Positions 21,576 to 27,735 of a stretch of 64,000 nt of DNA are shown here, one piece after another. The translations under genes were made by a program, and so were the position numbers. Positions within the stretch are counted from its first letter, which is position 1. Each line of letters opens with the position of its first letter. Location: NCBI RefSeq assembly GCF_000382125.1, contig NZ_KB907548.1:124001-188000 (forward strand), written 5' to 3'. The notes under the pieces are model-generated. The model did not search any database. It was given only the letters and a program-made list of their open reading frames with translations, and was not told where the DNA came from. The DNA is from Eudoraea adriatica DSM 19308 (GTDB taxonomy: Bacteria; Bacteroidota; Bacteroidia; Flavobacteriales; Flavobacteriaceae).

Positions 21576-24356
21576 CTAATGTAATTTTTCACGAAGGTAG
21601 CGTGCTGTGTGGGAATTATTATTTGTGGCGATTACCTCTGGTGTGCCAAACGCAATAAGATTACCTCCATTTTCACCTCCTTCGGGTCCCAGATCTATAA
21701 CATGATCCGCACATTTTATAAATTCAATATTGTGCTCAATTACAACCACGGAATGGCCTCTTGCGATTAATGCATCAAAAGATTTTAAAAGTTTTTTAAT
21801 ATCATGAAAATGAAGCCCTGTAGTAGGTTCATCAAATATGAACAAAGCTTTTTCTTTGGTGGTTCCTTTTACAAGGAATGATGCCAGTTTAATCCTTTGA
21901 GCCTCTCCACCCGATAAGGTAGATGAGGATTGACCTAAAGTGACGTATCCCAGACCGACTTCCTGAAGCGGCCGTAATTTACTGACGATTTTTGTTTGCA
22001 AATGAGTTTCAAAGAATGCAATGGCATCATCAATCGTCATGTTCAATATATCATCAATATTGGCATTTTCAAATCTCACCTCCAGTACTTCTTTCTTGAA
22101 ACGCTTACCGCTGCAGGTATCACATTCCAGGTGCACATCTGCCATAAACTGCATTTCTACAGTAATCTCCCCTTCGCCTTTGCACTTTTCACATCTGCCA
22201 CCATCTACATTAAAGGAGAAGTGTTTGGCTTGAAACCCCCTTAGCTTACTTAATTTTTGTGAGGCATATAATGCCCTGATATCATCATAGGCTTTAATAT
22301 ACGTAACCGGATTTGAACGAGACGACCTTCCAATCGGGTTTTGATCTACAAACTCTACATTTCTAAGGGTGTCGAATTTGCCGGATATTTCTGTATACTG
22401 ACCAGCTTTTTCTCCGTAACCGCCTACTTCTTTAAGCAAAATGGGGTAAAGCAATTTTTTTACCAGAGTACTTTTTCCACTCCCTGAAACGCCTGTTATT
22501 ACCGTAAGCATATTAAGTGGAAAAGTGACATCAATATTCTTTAAATTATTTTCTCTGGCTCCTTTAATTTCAATATAATATTTAGAGGTTCTGCGTTTTT
22601 CGGGAATTTCAATTGTCAGGCTTCCATTCAGGTAACTTGCAGTAAGCGAAGACGATTTCAGGATTTCCTTCATAGGGCCATGGGCTACTACTTCGCCCCC
22701 GTGAGTACCGGCTTCCGGACCAATGTCAATCACTTCATCGGCTGCAAGCATTATGTCTTCGTCATGTTCAACAACAATAACAGTATTGCCTAAATCCCTT
22801 AGAGACTTTAATACATTTATAAGATTTTCCGTATCTCTCGGATGCAAACCAATACTTGGTTCATCTAAAATATACATTGATCCAACCAAACTGCTTCCAA
22901 GCGAAGTGGCCAGGTTTATTCGCTGACTTTCACCCCCGGACAGCGTATTGGATTTTCTGTTAATGGTTAAATACTGCAATCCAACCTTATCCAGATAACT
23001 TAATCTTGTTTTGATTTCTGCTAATAATCTTTTTGCAATTTTTAAGTCGTGTTCACTTAATGTAAGCTGGTCAAAAAATGTAATCAAATTGTCAATTGAC
23101 AGCTCAACCAGATCTGAAATAGACTTGTCACCAATCTTAATATAGTTGGTTTCCATTCTGAGGCGTTTTCCTTTGCAATAGTTGCACCTTGTTTTACCTC
23201 TATACCTGGAGAGCATAACCCTATTCTGAATTTTATAACTCTTCTCCTCCAATTGCCGGAAAAATTTATCAATACCCATAAAATGCTCATTTCCCTGCCA
23301 GGCCACTAATTTTTGTACTTCACTGAGCTGATACCATGGTTTATGAATAGGAAAATTAAATTTATATGCAGAATTTACTAATTGATCCCTATACCAGCTC
23401 ATACTCTCGCCTCGCCATGGAAAGATGGCATTTTCAAATACAGACAATCCCGTATTGGGAATTACAAGATCCTCGTCAATACCAATTACGTCGCCATATC
23501 CTTCACACTTCGGACAAGCGCCATATGGGTTATTAAAACTAAAAAGGTGAACGTTGGGTTCCATAAAGGCCATTCCATCCAGTTCAAATTTATTGCTAAA
23601 CCGGGTCACCTTTCCATTTGAAATTTCTTCGATAAAGCAATATCCCTTGCCTTCAAAAAAGGCGGTATCCACTGCATTGGCTAATCGATTTAGAAAATCC
23701 TCGTCATCTTTCTTAATGATTCGATCTACAACTAATTCGAATTTATAACCAATATCCTCCAGGGCGTCTTCAATCCTGCAGACTTTGTTGTTGTGCTTTA
23801 TCCTTGCGTATCCTTGTTTGGATAGCAGCTGCAATGATTTCGCAGGATCTCTGTCTTTGGAAATTACAATAGGAGCCAATAACAGGAGCTTGGTGCCTTC
23901 TTCGAATGATTTTACATGATTTACAACATCTGTGACATTGTGTTTCTTAACCTCTTTACCTGAAACTGGCGAGTACGTTTTGCCAATTCTGGCATAGAGG
24001 AGTTTTAAATAGTCATATATTTCTGTTGTAGTGCCAACGGTGGACCTTGGATTAGTAGAATTGACCTTTTGTTCAATGGCTATGGCAGGAGCGATTCCTT
24101 TTATATAGTCTACTTTGGGTTTGTCTAATTTGCCAAGAAATTGCCTTGCGTAGGAGGAAAGGCTCTCTACATAACGACGCTGACCCTCAGCATAAAGAGT
24201 ATCGAAGGCCAAACTAGACTTACCTGAACCGGAAAGTCCGGTAATAACGACCAGCTTATTTCTTGGGATTACTACATCTATATTTTTGAGGTTATGCAGT
24301 TTAGCCCCTTTGATTATTATATTTTTCTTTGGATTAACTTCGGTTATTGCGGACAT
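21576..24356 (-). CDS. uvrA: Excinuclease ABC subunit A
   Basis: The 926-residue protein is the damage-recognition ATPase of nucleotide excision repair. Two ABC cassettes are present: Walker [10 protein letters not shown] near residue 41 and GVSGSGKST near 625, with signatures [12 protein letters not shown] and [12 protein letters not shown]. The zinc-binding modules appear as [16 protein letters not shown], and the pair CEKCKGEG ... CDTCSGKR. I choose the ATG at 24356 ([11 protein letters not shown]). A longer frame reaches an upstream start at 24398, but the likely promoter -7 box at 24374-24381 lies inside that extension, so the longer protein could not be made from it. Confidence 0.95.
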
Positions 24357-24373
24357 TTCTAATATTAGGTTGG

Positions 24374-24405
24374 CAAAGATACAATATGTTGAATTCAAAC
24401 ACCAA
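24374..24405 (-). promoter_or_regulatory. Putative uvrA promoter (TTG-N21-TATCTTTG)
   Basis: On the minus strand, TTG (24403-24405) and TATCTTTG (24374-24381) are separated by 21 nt, which fits the Bacteroidota TTG / TAnnTTTG layout. The -7 box lies 17 nt before the chosen uvrA ATG and helps decide that start. No LexA-type dyad was recognised. Confidence 0.6.
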
Positions 24406-24473
24406 TAGGTGGCTTTTTACATCGGAATTGTGTAAAATCACAACATTGTTTATAGGAGAATATATATTTTTTC

Positions 24474-24481
24474 TATATTTG
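24474..24481 (+). promoter_or_regulatory. Putative -7 element (TATATTTG) for sigma factor copy 1
   Basis: TATATTTG fits TAnnTTTG and would give a leader of roughly 110 nt before the first sigma gene. The nearest upstream TTG is 25 nt away, so the -33 element is doubtful. The leader also holds a small hairpin. Confidence 0.4.
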
Positions 24482-24553
24482 GGGTATAATTATTAAAACT
24501 TCTGCCTATACAAGAAAATTACTTTTTTGAGATAAAACCTGAATAATGAAAGT

Positions 24554-24571
24554 CCTTTCCCAAAAGAAAGG
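24554..24571 (+). promoter_or_regulatory. Leader hairpin upstream of sigma factor copy 1
   Basis: CCTTTC and GAAAGG pair across CCAAAA, 30 nt before the ATG. There is no T tract, so it is not a classical terminator. It may affect translation or mRNA stability of the sigma gene. No equivalent hairpin is obvious at the same place before copy 2. Confidence 0.3.
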
Positions 24572-24601
24572 CCCCTAAGTTTAACCAAAAAAGTAATTAG
24601 T

Positions 24602-25183
24602 ATGCAACTACCTGCAGAAGATCCAATATTAGTTCAGAATTACATTAGCGGCGATGAAAAAGCCCTTGAAATTCTAATCAACAAACACAATCAGCGTATT
24701 ACCAGTTTTATTTATTCCAAGGTCCTGGATAGGGCTATTGCAGAGGATATCTTTCAGGATACCTTTATAAAGGTAATTAACACTTTAAAAAGAGGCGCAT
24801 ATAATGAAGAAGGCAAGTTCTTGCCCTGGGTAATGCGCATAGCACATAATCTTGTCATTGACCATTTTAGAAGAAATAAGCGAATGCCTAAATTTGAAGG
24901 TACCGGAGATTTTAATATCTTTTCTGTTTTGGGAGATGATAAACTGGATGCTGAGAGACAGATAATTAAAGACCAGATTGAAAATGATCTGGGGTTATTG
25001 ATAGAAGAACTTCCTGATGATCAAAAAGAGGTTTTAATAATGCGCATGTACAGGGATATGAGTTTTAAAGAAATATCCGAAAATACGGGCGTAAGCATTA
25101 ATACTGCTTTGGGGAGAATGCGGTATGCCTTAATTAACCTTAGAAAGATAATAGAAAAGAACAATATTGTTTTAACGAATTAA
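24602..25183 (+). CDS. RNA polymerase sigma factor, sigma-70/ECF type, copy 1
   Basis: The 193-residue protein has sigma region 2 (DIFQDTFIKVINTLKRG ... PWVMRIAHNLVIDHFRR, about residues 25-100) and region 4 (LPDDQKEVLIMRMYRDMSFKEIS, then NTGVSINTALGRMRYAL, about 138-180), with no regions 1 or 3. This is ECF-like architecture, so it should direct RNA polymerase to a small regulon. Copy 2 lies 0.57 kb downstream. The two align without gaps, with about 35 differences in 193 positions, and region 4 is nearly identical, so they may read the same or overlapping promoters. A 47-residue ORF follows each copy. No recognisable transmembrane anti-sigma gene is adjacent, which is unusual for ECF factors. 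Confidence 0.9.
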   Translation: MQLPAEDPILVQNYISGDEKALEILINKHNQRITSFIYSKVLDRAIAEDIFQDTFIKVINTLKRGAYNEEGKFLPWVMRIAHNLVIDHFRRNKRMPKFEGTGDFNIFSVLGDDKLDAERQIIKDQIENDLGLLIEELPDDQKEVLIMRMYRDMSFKEISENTGVSINTALGRMRYALINLRKIIEKNNIVLTN

Positions 25184-25220
25184 TAGGTTCTATAACGACA
25201 AATCCAATTGGTTCCATAAT

Positions 25221-25244
25221 AGTTGCGTTATTTAGGCATAACAA
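25221..25244 (+). promoter_or_regulatory. Conserved dyad AGTTGCGTTAT-N6-ATAACAA before small ORF copy 1
   Basis: AGTTGCGTTAT (25221-25231) and ATAACAA (25238-25244) are separated by six bases and lie 8 nt before the small ORF. The inner part GTTAT-N6-ATAAC is a perfect inverted repeat. Exactly the same two words with the same six-base gap occur at 26372-26395 before the second small ORF, while the intervening bases differ. This looks like a protein-binding site or promoter that has been preserved after duplication. Confidence 0.6.
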
Positions 25245-25252
25245 ATTAATTT

Positions 25253-25396
25253 ATGGAACAGATTTACCCCGAAAATCAAAACAAATGCCGACTTGTAAAG
25301 GCTAATCCGGAAAGTGTTCGCTTTTTGCTACAGTATTCCAAGTCGCTGAATATTGTAAATCATAAAGGAATGAAGTTCGAGAACAATTTGAATTGA
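25253..25396 (+). CDS. 47-residue conserved small protein, sigma-cassette copy 1
   Basis: A short ORF (ATG to TGA) encodes 47 residues beginning MEQIYPENQNKC and ending KFENNLN. It is 69 nt after sigma factor copy 1, and a terminator follows 31 nt later. A second ORF of identical length in the same position after sigma copy 2 shares 25 of 47 residues, including the core PE--RFLL-YS-S and the end KFE--LN. That conservation at the protein level shows selection for a real product. It is charged, with no signal peptide or membrane helix, and has a single Cys (residue 12) kept in both copies. The function is unknown; a sigma-binding or co-regulated peptide is possible. Confidence 0.7.
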   Translation: MEQIYPENQNKCRLVKANPESVRFLLQYSKSLNIVNHKGMKFENNLN

Positions 25397-25754
25397 GCAA
25401 TTCCTTTATTTAAAGAATAAACAACTGTCCCTTTGATATCATATCAAGGGGATTTTTCTTTTCCAGCTGCTTCTTCAGTATTATGCTTAGGCGATTCGCA
25501 TTAATCCGTGAATAGTCCTGGCCAACAGAAAAATTCCATGGTAACTAATATTTTATGGATTTATTGTGCTTAAAATTACCAAACCGCGATTTGACATCAG
25601 AAATCGGGGGTTTGACAACATAGTTTTTCACGGGCCTCTCTATTTCTATACTTTTAAATTGTAATTATGAAATCATAGTTACTCAGGAAGTAAACTAATA
25701 ACCAAAGGCACAACAAAAAAGCTCCTTTATAATAACCAAAAAATATTACCGACT
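25397..25754 (+). other. 358-nt intergenic region between sigma cassettes
   Basis: The region holds the terminator at 25428-25462 and a weak hairpin around 25581-25600 (CGATTT ... AAATCG), then the AT-rich leader of sigma copy 2. The last bases before each sigma ATG share the word AACCAAAAAA. I see no ORF of substance, tRNA or transposon end. Confidence 0.5.
25428..25462 (+). terminator. Rho-independent terminator after small ORF copy 1
   Basis: TCCCTTTGATA and TATCAAGGGGA pair (one T-G wobble) around a TCA loop, followed by TTTTTCTTTT. It lies 31 nt after the small ORF, so sigma copy 1 and its small ORF form a closed transcription unit separate from copy 2. Confidence 0.85.
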
Positions 25755-26336
25755 ATGGAATTTCAAATTGATGATTCAGAATTAGTAAGAGACTATATCA
25801 GCGGCGACGAAAAAGCCCTCGAAGTCCTTATAAACAGGCATAATCAGCGCATTAGTAGTTTTATTTATTCAAAGGTATTGGATAAGGATATTACGGAGGA
25901 TATCTTTCAGGATACTTTTATCAAAGTAATTAAAACTCTAAAAAAAGGTTCTTATAGTGAAGAGGGAAAATTCTTGCCCTGGGTAATGAGAATATCACAC
26001 AACCTTATTATTGATCACTTTAGAAAGAATAAGCGTATGCCTAAGTTTGAAGGGAGTGATGATTTCAATATTTTTTCGGTTATTGGTGATGATAAGCTAA
26101 ATGCAGAAAAGCAGATTATCAAAGATCAGATAGATAGTGATCTGGGTGCTTTGATTGAAGAATTACCGGATGACCAGAAAGAGGTTTTGCTTATGAGAAT
26201 CTATAAGGACATGAGCTTTAAGGAGATTTCTGAAAATACAGGAGTAAGTATAAATACTGCACTTGGAAGAATGCGATATGCTTTAATAAATCTTAGAAAA
26301 ATAATAGAAAGACACAATATCGTTTTAACAAATTAA
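25755..26336 (+). CDS. RNA polymerase sigma factor, sigma-70/ECF type, copy 2
   Basis: This 193-residue paralogue of copy 1 has the same regions 2 and 4 and the same length, with about 82 percent identical residues and no gap. Most changes are at the N-terminus (residues 2-13) and in the linker around residues 102-120. The region 4 recognition helix area SFKEISENTGVSINTALGRMRYALINLRKI is unchanged between copies. The N-terminal segment, which often contacts regulators, is the most divergent, so the copies may be separately controlled while reading similar promoters. DNA-level divergence is clearly higher than protein divergence, so the duplication is old and both genes are under purifying selection. 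It is followed by small ORF copy 2. Confidence 0.9.
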   Translation: MEFQIDDSELVRDYISGDEKALEVLINRHNQRISSFIYSKVLDKDITEDIFQDTFIKVIKTLKKGSYSEEGKFLPWVMRISHNLIIDHFRKNKRMPKFEGSDDFNIFSVIGDDKLNAEKQIIKDQIDSDLGALIEELPDDQKEVLLMRIYKDMSFKEISENTGVSINTALGRMRYALINLRKIIERHNIVLTN

Positions 26337-26371
26337 GAGCAGAGAATACATTAAAACAATATTTCCATTTA

Positions 26372-26395
26372 AGTTGCGTTATAAGTTTATAACAA
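26372..26395 (+). promoter_or_regulatory. Conserved dyad AGTTGCGTTAT-N6-ATAACAA before small ORF copy 2
   Basis: AGTTGCGTTAT (26372-26382) and ATAACAA (26389-26395) repeat the arrangement seen before small ORF copy 1, with the same 6-nt gap. Here the site lies 12 nt before the ATG. The surrounding intergenic sequence is not otherwise alike, which marks these bases as functional. Confidence 0.6.
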
Positions 26396-26407
26396 TACTA
26401 TACTAAT

Positions 26408-26551
26408 ATGGAAAAAATTTACTCTGAAGAACGAAACGCTTGTAAACTGGCCAAAACCAGTCCTGAGACGATCCGGTTTTTACTGGATTATTCCAGGTCC
26501 TTCAGAATAACGAAGTACAAGAAATTCAAATTTGAAACAACTTTGAATTAA
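26408..26551 (+). CDS. 47-residue conserved small protein, sigma-cassette copy 2
   Basis: The ORF runs from ATG to TAA and encodes 47 residues beginning MEKIYSEERNAC and ending KFETTLN. It is the counterpart of the ORF after sigma copy 1: same length, gapless alignment, 25 identical residues, and the same position relative to the sigma gene and the dyad. It is more basic than copy 1 (SFRITKYKKFKF near the C-terminus). A strong terminator follows 8 nt after the stop codon. No membrane segment is seen. It is not a known anti-sigma family that I recognise. Confidence 0.7.
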   Translation: MEKIYSEERNACKLAKTSPETIRFLLDYSRSFRITKYKKFKFETTLN

Positions 26552-26559
26552 AACAAAAT

Positions 26560-26584
26560 GGCCCGCATTTAGCGGGCCTTTTTT
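26560..26584 (+). terminator. Rho-independent terminator after small ORF copy 2
   Basis: GGCCCGC / GCGGGCC with an ATTTA loop is followed by TTTTTT. It overlaps the last codons of the convergent nth gene, and on the minus strand is followed by a weaker T-rich stretch, so it may serve both genes. Confidence 0.85.
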
Positions 26585-27231
26585 ATTCTAAAATAATCTT
26601 CTAACACATTTTTTCTTCCGATCGTTTTGGTTATCAAGTCTTTATCTAAATCCCAGCCCCTGGCCGGAGAATATTCACGACCATACCAAATTATTTGAAG
26701 ATGCAGATCGTTCCATAATTCTTTAGGAAATAGCCTTTTTGCATCCCGCTCCGTTTGAACTACATTTTTCCCACTGGAAAACCCCCAGCGATACATAAGA
26801 CGATGAATATGGGTATCCACAGGAAAAGCAGGAATGCCAAAAGCCTGCGAGACCACAACACTGGCAGTTTTGTGTCCAACACTGGGTAATTCTTCCAAAA
26901 GACTTATTTCAGACGGGACATGTCCATCATATTTTTCAATCAAAATTTTGGATAGGCCATGGATTCCCTTCGATTTCATTGGAGAAAGACCTACCGGCTT
27001 AATAATTTCTCTTATTTCCTCAACAGACATTTTAACCATATCATAGGGGTTGTCAGCTCTTCTAAATAATAATGGTGTTATCTGGTTTACACGGACATCC
27101 GTACTTTGGGCCGATAAAAGTACGGCGATCAACAATGTATATGGATCCTTGTGCTCCAGAGGAACCGGTATTTCCGGATACAATTCCTGCAGTTTTTTTA
27201 TTGCGAAAGAAACTTTTTCCGATTTAGTCAT
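26569..27231 (-). CDS. nth: Endonuclease III-like DNA glycosylase without iron-sulfur cluster
   Basis: The 220-residue HhH-GPD protein removes oxidised pyrimidines and nicks abasic sites. The helix-hairpin-helix is LPSVGHKTASVVV with catalytic Lys121, and the catalytic Asp139 is in FPVDTHIHR. Endonuclease III of most bacteria carries a C-terminal 4Fe-4S loop (C-x6-C-x2-C-x5-C). Here the corresponding part reads YGREYSPARGWDLDKDLI, and the whole protein contains no cysteine. Base excision activity is still likely because both catalytic residues are kept. The gene is convergent with the sigma cassettes and divergent from bcp. Confidence 0.88.
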   Translation of the reverse strand: MTKSEKVSFAIKKLQELYPEIPVPLEHKDPYTLLIAVLLSAQSTDVRVNQITPLLFRRADNPYDMVKMSVEEIREIIKPVGLSPMKSKGIHGLSKILIEKYDGHVPSEISLLEELPSVGHKTASVVVSQAFGIPAFPVDTHIHRLMYRWGFSSGKNVVQTERDAKRLFPKELWNDLHLQIIWYGREYSPARGWDLDKDLITKTIGRKNVLEDYFRIKKAR

Positions 27232-27285
27232 ATTTGTTTAACTTTACAATGAAAAAAATAAACATAAACTTAATTTAATAAAAAT

Positions 27286-27735
27286 ATGAACACACTTAAA
27301 GAGGGTGATAAAGTCCCTGATTTTTCATCTGTCGATCAGGATGGCAATTTGGTAAATTTAAGCGATTATTCCGGTAAAAAGTTGGTGGTATTTTTTTATC
27401 CCAAGGCTAATACACCCGGTTGTACTGCTGAAGCCTGTAATCTTAGGGATAATTATGCAGAACTGCAGTCAAAAGGGTATGAACTTTTGGGGGTCAGTGC
27501 AGATTCTGAAAAGAAACAGGCTGGTTTTAGGGATAAATATGAATTCCCATTTCCGCTTTTAGCTGATGAAGATCATACTGTAATTAATACGTTTGGAGTC
27601 TGGGGTCCCAAAAAATTTATGGGCAGGGAATACGATGGTATTCACAGAATGACTTTTATTATTGATGAAAAAGGATTCGTTAGTAAAGTAATTGAAAAGG
27701 TCAAAACTAAAGATCATGCCGCTCAAATTCTTTAA
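27286..27735 (+). CDS. bcp: Thioredoxin-dependent thiol peroxidase, Bcp/PrxQ type
   Basis: The 149-residue peroxiredoxin reduces hydrogen peroxide and organic hydroperoxides using thioredoxin. The motif YPKANTPGCTAEACNLRD holds the peroxidatic Cys46 and the resolving Cys51 five residues later, the atypical 2-Cys layout of PrxQ. FWGPKKFMGR-like sequence (GVWGPKKFMGREYDGIHR) in the C-terminal half is standard for the family. It is cytoplasmic. It is divergent from nth across 54 nt, pairing two oxidative-damage functions, and ends at a clear terminator. Confidence 0.95.
   Translation: MNTLKEGDKVPDFSSVDQDGNLVNLSDYSGKKLVVFFYPKANTPGCTAEACNLRDNYAELQSKGYELLGVSADSEKKQAGFRDKYEFPFPLLADEDHTVINTFGVWGPKKFMGREYDGIHRMTFIIDEKGFVSKVIEKVKTKDHAAQIL

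Follow-up and report, generated by a model that had tools for sequence, protein, structure and literature searches.

This report concerns a stretch of 64,000 nucleotides (nt) of Eudoraea adriatica DSM 19308 (contig NZ_KB907548.1, positions 124,001 to 188,000), hereafter the window, in which two genes for sigma factors of the extracytoplasmic function (ECF) type are each followed by an open reading frame (ORF) of 47 amino acids (aa). The features of both cassettes lie on the plus strand. In the first cassette, on the side of uvrA, the gene of the 193-aa sigma1 (copy 1; 24602-25183; assigned by ORF, Pfam and tree) is followed by a promoter-like element (25205-25231; a sequence match only) with a degenerate -35 box CAATT at 25205-25209, a spacer of 16 nt and a -10 box CGTTAT at 25226-25231. 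Then come ORF1 (25253-25396), a candidate mini anti-sigma factor of helix-4 type according to its reading frame, profile comparison and substitution pattern, and a terminator-like hairpin at 25427-25453. In the second cassette, on the side of nth, the gene of the 193-aa sigma2 (copy 2; 25755-26336; assigned by ORF, Pfam, tree and substitution pattern, the slower-evolving copy) is followed by a perfect match to ACAAT-N16-CGTTAT (26356-26382; again a sequence match only), by ORF2 (26408-26551), a candidate of the same type for which an AlphaFold2 model is also available, and by a terminator-like hairpin at 26560-26578. Both hairpins come from a terminator scan, which gave seven terminator-like sites on both strands in 23801-27400, against a shuffle mean of 2.4. 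A sequence-only reading of this DNA had already described the cassette order, lengths and terminators as preserved, and all of them were located; its spacing of 0.57 kb between the sigma genes is measured as 571 bp from the stop of sigma1 to the start of sigma2. The two cassettes are flanked by uvrA (21576-24398, minus strand) on the sigma1 side and by nth (26569-27231, minus strand) on the sigma2 side, with a bcp-like gene (27286-27735) after nth, all three being named by reading of their ORFs. No membrane anti-sigma gene is adjacent in the window, in agreement with the same reading.

What kind of proteins are the two sigma factors, and how are they related? Both consist of regions 2 and 4 in about 190 aa, as ECF-type members of the sigma-70 family do, with Sigma70_r2, Sigma70_r4_2 and Sigma70_r4 above the Pfam cut-off in each, and sigma1 matches ECF chains in the PDB (best E 1.2e-16). 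Their gap-free alignment has exactly 35 differences in 193 positions: 9/20 in the N-terminus, 13/74 in region 2, 7/35 in the linker, 4/53 in region 4 and 2/11 in the C-terminus. The earlier count of about 35 differences, with the N-terminus most divergent and region 4 nearly unchanged, was therefore accurate. Since region 4 is near-identical, the two factors probably read similar promoters, as had been suggested; they may also be controlled differently, the other half of that suggestion. The ratio of nonsynonymous to synonymous differences (pN/pS) was calculated for the window and seven further loci of its genus, giving 28 pairs for each gene; it is 0.08 for sigma1 and 0.04 for sigma2.

Two sigma copies are present in the window's own genome and in eight of nine other genomes of its genus, the ninth genome being 60% complete, and also in four other genera of the family (G010, G020, G027 and G035). 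A wider view is given by 80 named loci, the best 80 of at least 509 relatives, which form an independent set from a scan with the sigma alignment alone. Eight of them hold two copies, including Maribacter, a Muriicola metagenome-assembled genome and 'Cytophaga' sp. FL35. Because the other 72, including Flagellimonas, Robertkochia and Flavobacterium loci, hold one sigma gene, the sigma-ORF pair is mostly single-copy. Judged by these loci, the duplicated regulatory module proposed before is indeed there, and the duplication is a clade-restricted detail of an older unit. In a quick sigma tree every copy-2 gene lies on one side of a branch with a support of only 15, copy 1 fits at two changes, copy 1 of L014 falls among the copy-2 rows, and the branches of copy 2 are shorter. 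The tree favours, without proving it, a single old duplication after which copy 1 evolved faster. The arrangement with a 47-aa ORF looks special to this sigma factor, because, of five further ECF sigma genes taken from the window's genome, four are followed by a gene for a protein of 127-304 aa, in most cases with a membrane segment as judged by eye.

Is the 47-aa ORF a gene at all? The proteins of ORF1 and ORF2 share 25 of 47 residues. In the same eight loci the in-frame pN/pS is 0.23 for ORF1 and 0.20 for ORF2, and the other two frames give 1.15-1.77. Length, start and a C-terminal N are conserved in the ORF family. On this coding pattern, the ORF is a real protein gene. It is matched by no Pfam family in either copy; with NCBIfam, ORF2 has no match and ORF1 has two weak matches to unrelated families (E 0.095 and 0.21), which were taken as chance. 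The literature searches aimed most directly at the ORF returned no papers.

The pair of sigma gene and small ORF can be followed through the family. Among 60 relatives the sigma factor is found at E<=1e-40 in 51, and the 47-aa profile matches 44 at E<=0.1, a few of these matches being weak and away from the sigma gene. In the own genome and the relatives' loci, an ORF with the helix motif comes after 58 of 63 sigma copies and is missing after those in L070, L071, L077, L086 and L087. The search for this pair in other flavobacterial genomes, which the sequence-only reading had proposed, found it in 73 of the 80 named loci and after 81 of their 88 sigma copies, single-copy loci included, in genera such as Maribacter, Flagellimonas, Gramella, Winogradskyella, Aquimarina, Polaribacter and Flavobacterium. 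The case named there as fatal, an ORF that is unconserved and absent beside orthologous sigma genes, thus fails on the sequence side. The named loci lacking it are L188, where the contig ends 128 nt past the sigma gene, L190, L191, L197, L199, L200 and L201, and the ORF lengths of L177 and L195 are counted from an internal ATG. The flanking genes are seen as well, uvrA in 69 and nth in 63 of the 80 loci, several of which are cut short. Over all 175 sigma genes the motif ORF is found 161 times in sense, versus 2 times in antisense and 8 times in reversed-sequence controls; 87 of these genes, 80 of them with the ORF, do not belong to the named set; among them are loci used for model training and loci fetched via the ORF. 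The adjacency to a sigma gene that is characteristic of class I anti-sigma factors is thus seen for 81/88 copies, a count that scores adjacency and not cognate function.

Some exceptions can be described individually. Genome G055 has no ORF beside its sigma gene; one of the profile matches away from the sigma gene is here a 51-aa form with the motif and the LN end (L090; C2:74214-74339, minus strand), on a contig other than that of the sigma gene. Downstream of the sigma gene in L077 and L086 the CGTTAT element is kept, but the next ORF (64 and 47 aa) lacks the helix motif. A possible third copy in the window's genome (C3:467103-467195, E 0.37) was rejected; it has no plausible start, is not in the profile-search results and overlaps the antisense end of an aminotransferase-like ORF.

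The small ORF is not isolated from larger proteins. Elsewhere in the order, outside the window's family, the sigma gene is followed by an ORF of 44 to 90 aa. An 88-aa form was searched against 296 genomes of the class, and 67 were matched at E<=0.01. Among 30 loci fetched by this long form, 29 have ORFs of 69-89 aa; the remaining one (L120) has a 266-aa protein following a different ECF sigma factor, that is, a different ECF/anti-sigma pair. Nineteen of the 30 hold a sigma factor of the window sigma's family. In the genomes of the other ten (L094, L096, L101, L102, L103, L106, L112, L113, L114 and L117) a family sigma gene lies elsewhere in 10/10 cases, at E 6e-74 to 1e-40, and in G102 it is 2.6 kb off on the same contig. 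Two layouts were noticed besides: the sigma gene and the long form are separated by a gene of about 190 aa in L108 and L122, both among the 19, and in L096, L101, L103, L106 and L113 the long form is kept beside nth and bcp with no adjacent sigma gene.

By hhalign, the 47-aa profile aligns with the long-form profile at 91% and E 1.1e-6, residues 14-38 to residues 54-78, which is the C-terminal part. For the long-form profile, in turn, hhalign gives 96% and E 3e-9 over residues 10-67 against six RskA-type proteins at their N-termini, a comparison that is not blind in that a long-form probe had found the six; two of them (L203 and L120) were checked for RskA_C. A blind NCBIfam scan of 28 long forms gave matches to 'anti-sigma factor' for eight (best E 4.7e-4) and to 'putative anti-sigmaE' for five (best E 0.0033), all below the curated cut-off, and Pfam gave scattered weak matches, one of them zf-HC2 at 0.16. 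Sixteen further long-frame matches of the 88-aa probe were fetched: 14 have an ECF-like sigma gene upstream, as judged by eye, and two (L207 and L216) are other proteins. Of these 14 sigma-linked proteins, 13 contain a stretch of mean hydropathy >=1.6; L205 does not. The sigma factors of L206, L208 and L212 group inside the window sigma's family in the tree, and their partners, which come from one family of the class (f52), have 193-194 aa, with an anti-sigma-like N-terminus and the helix motif placed before a hydrophobic, membrane-like stretch. The two of these partners that were scanned match the NCBIfam anti-sigma factor at 2.3e-4 and 1.9e-4. This partner is probably membrane-anchored, to judge from the stretch. 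For one sigma family there is thus a graded series of partners, of 194 aa, 69-90 aa, 60-69 aa and 44-51 aa, and we infer that the series runs by loss rather than by gain.

The AlphaFold2 model of ORF2 (66 sequences; mean predicted local distance difference test score, pLDDT, 84.6) has helices at 2-7 and at 19-31, the latter over the conserved motif, and strands at 32-37 and 40-45 that form a beta-hairpin. The model of the 69-aa form from L181 (10 sequences, mean pLDDT 77.5) has a helix at 7-23, the motif helix at 40-52 and the same hairpin. No hydrophobic, membrane-like stretch is found in the 47-aa protein.

How could the small gene be controlled? The element ACAAT-N16-CGTTAT lies between the sigma gene and the ORF; in most of 42 cassettes it ends some 20-32 nt short of the ATG. 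To put a number on this, 70 independent short-form ORFs were compared at spacers of 12 to 21: 40 match ACAAT-CGTT in 8 of 9 bases at spacer 16, versus 0-9 at the nine other spacers. In 67 of the 70, CGTT is found no more than 48 nt from the ATG; mononucleotide shuffles give a mean of 6.6 and a maximum of 13. The spacer-16 match is also present in 10 of 14 longer forms of the same set and in 12 of 34 from L069-L122. Upstream of the sigma gene the exact element occurs in only 2 of 128. In the window's genus the -35 box of copy 1 is degenerate, as CAATT in the window, and CGTTAT is kept. Two further sequence features of this intergenic region were observed. One is an inverted repeat GTTAT-N6-ATAAC beginning in the -10 element (window 25227-25242 and 26378-26393), which may be an operator or chance. 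The other is an element AGGTCGA just past the sigma stop, seen by eye in the copy-1 cassettes L013-L016, L126, L127, L130, L133, L134, L136, L144 and L175 and in the single cassette of L156.

Then what does the 47-aa protein do? In class I anti-sigma factors, as described in the available part of PMC7406223, helices 1-3 bind sigma region 4, and helix 4 binds sigma regions 2.1/2.2, where it would keep the core polymerase from binding. The window ORFs do not have the four-helix domain of these factors, a bundle of H1-H3 plus H4, and for this reason the 47-aa protein is not classed with them. Even so, its likeliest role is that of a pared-down anti-sigma factor, because the ORF family grades into longer anti-sigma-like proteins. 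We regard it as reasonably probable that in the 47-aa protein an anti-sigma factor has been cut down to the end that binds sigma region 2, as a soluble brake in a feedback of the sigma factor on itself, in a module duplicated within the clade. The ancestral partner of the sigma factor would have had an anti-sigma domain of three helices, a linker and helix 4, and the three-helix part would have been lost in Flavobacteriaceae. Left over would be the helix motif (around PxxETIxFLLxYS[KR]), a short N-terminus and the predicted beta-hairpin tail, mostly ending in LN. From the ECF-type promoter-like element just past its own stop the sigma factor may switch on its brake, which would bind region 2 on the face used for core binding, in competition with core RNA polymerase. 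A self-made brake on region 2 is proposed because the 47-aa protein keeps a helix at the place of helix 4; through it, the protein probably works like a class I factor. The outcome would be a soluble negative-feedback limiter with no membrane sensor. The whole cassette would then have been duplicated in the clade, copy 2 remaining slow and copy 1 diverging together with its ORF. We infer the binding, the inhibition and the use of the promoter; the conservation, the selection on the coding frame, the likeness of the helix motif to that of longer partners with an N-terminus matching anti-sigma proteins, and the promoter-like element are the observations behind them. The narrower model of a family-wide, 47-residue soluble anti-sigma factor, with one helix for sigma region 2, a beta-hairpin clamp, no part for sigma region 4 and feedback from its own sigma factor, is held tentatively, at somewhat below an even chance. 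As for the regulatory role not yet described that the sequence-only reading allowed for the small ORF, a regulatory role is probable; that it is undescribed need not hold, given the passage into anti-sigma-like proteins.

Several results should be noticed that speak against a reduced anti-sigma factor. The link from the 47-aa protein to RskA-type proteins runs only through the long forms, and a direct hhalign of the 47-aa profile with the RskA-type N-termini gives 0.1% (E 0.42). None of the anti-sigma matches of the long and 194-aa forms reaches a curated cut-off in Pfam or NCBIfam, and no anti-sigma chain came up when the long-form profile was searched against PDB sequences. The predicted beta-hairpin after the motif helix is absent from a plain helix 4, and Foldseek of the 47-aa model against the PDB found nothing at E<=0.001. 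The sigma columns of region 2 show no excess of mutual information with the helix motif, in a set of low power (159 pairs, effective N about 72): among the top 30 pairs, five fall in region 2 (74 of 193 columns), ten in the linker (35 columns) and six in the N-terminus (20 columns). The motif ORF is missing in 7 of the 80 named loci and after 5 of the 63 sigma copies of the relatives' loci. The promoter motif is also without enrichment, with 3 matches in the own genome versus 6 for the reversed-pattern control, 39 versus 39 over 40 genomes, and 23 in the window with two mismatches allowed versus 28 expected from shuffles. Therefore no regulon can be named, and a genome-wide regulon based on this motif was rejected for want of any excess over the controls; the commonest other match over the 40 genomes reads as coding sequence by its codon pattern.

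Could the protein instead help the sigma factor? As a positive cofactor, a core-binding or folding adapter derived from the anti-sigma helix after loss of the bundle, it would account for the tight co-retention with the sigma gene, the purifying selection on the ORF and a beta-hairpin tail in the form without the bundle; the absence of H1-H3, the part that holds sigma region 4 in class I factors (PMC7406223, in the part available), fits as well. We consider this unlikely, however, since the part that was kept is the helix covering the core-binding surface in those factors (same source), and the longer proteins that accompany the same sigma family are anti-sigma-like. Less likely still is a product of the sigma regulon with its own job, which stands beside the sigma gene by chance and is linked to it by transcription, not by binding. 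Its own ECF-type promoter-like element and the lack of a contact signal in mutual information agree with such a product, but the helix motif is common to anti-sigma-like partners, and the family sigma is present even where the genes are apart, in the ten long-form genomes and in G055. A regulatory RNA or leader in which the ORF is no protein gene is very improbable, for although a weak inverted repeat GTTAT-N6/7-ATAAC begins in the -10 element at several loci (by eye), the low in-frame pN/pS against that of the other frames and the conserved length, start and C-terminal N speak for a protein.

If the ORF is a reduced anti-sigma factor, what would follow from it? According to the available part of PMC7406223, an anti-sigma factor of class I is encoded near only 6% of the ECF sigma factors of Bacteroidetes, versus an average of 32% over the phyla, and broken synteny or other modes of regulation are suggested there as causes of the gap. 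Small partners that fall below every Pfam and NCBIfam cut-off could fill part of it. Many apparently partnerless ECF sigma factors of Bacteroidota would then gain a partner that was overlooked through its small size. A 47-aa factor with the helix-4 end alone would also put to the test how little of an anti-sigma domain suffices to inhibit a sigma factor, and the duplicated modules would be a natural test of the insulation between sigma/anti-sigma pairs.

The arrangement can be compared with known systems. In Bacillus subtilis, CsfB (Gin) is reported to act as an anti-sigma factor on two alternative sigma factors (PMC5890618). This small soluble protein is not known to be related to the anti-sigma domain, and it is likened to the 47-aa protein by description only. 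On the side of the sigma factor, SigP (PGN_0274) of Porphyromonas gingivalis also has 193 aa (PMC4800418, in the part available), a likeness by length only, and one SigP homolog is stated for F. johnsoniae in the available part of PMC10951265. A role of the window sigma factors in the type IX secretion system is only a lead. An ECF promoter motif of F. psychrophilum, SM6, has a CGT -10 box (PMC9723704, in the part available), as the promoter-like element of the ORF does. Like the factors with a class I anti-sigma domain (ASDI), such as RseA, ChrR and RskA, the 47-aa protein is encoded beside an ECF sigma gene and has its motif at the place of helix 4 (PMC7406223, in the part available); unlike them, it is without the three-helix bundle or a membrane-like stretch and has a predicted beta-hairpin tail. 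In CnrY, two helices suffice to hold the sigma factor, and the last binds sigma region 2 in the way of ASDI helix 4 (same source). The first helix of CnrY binds sigma region 4, a difference from the window ORFs, and this likeness too is by description only.

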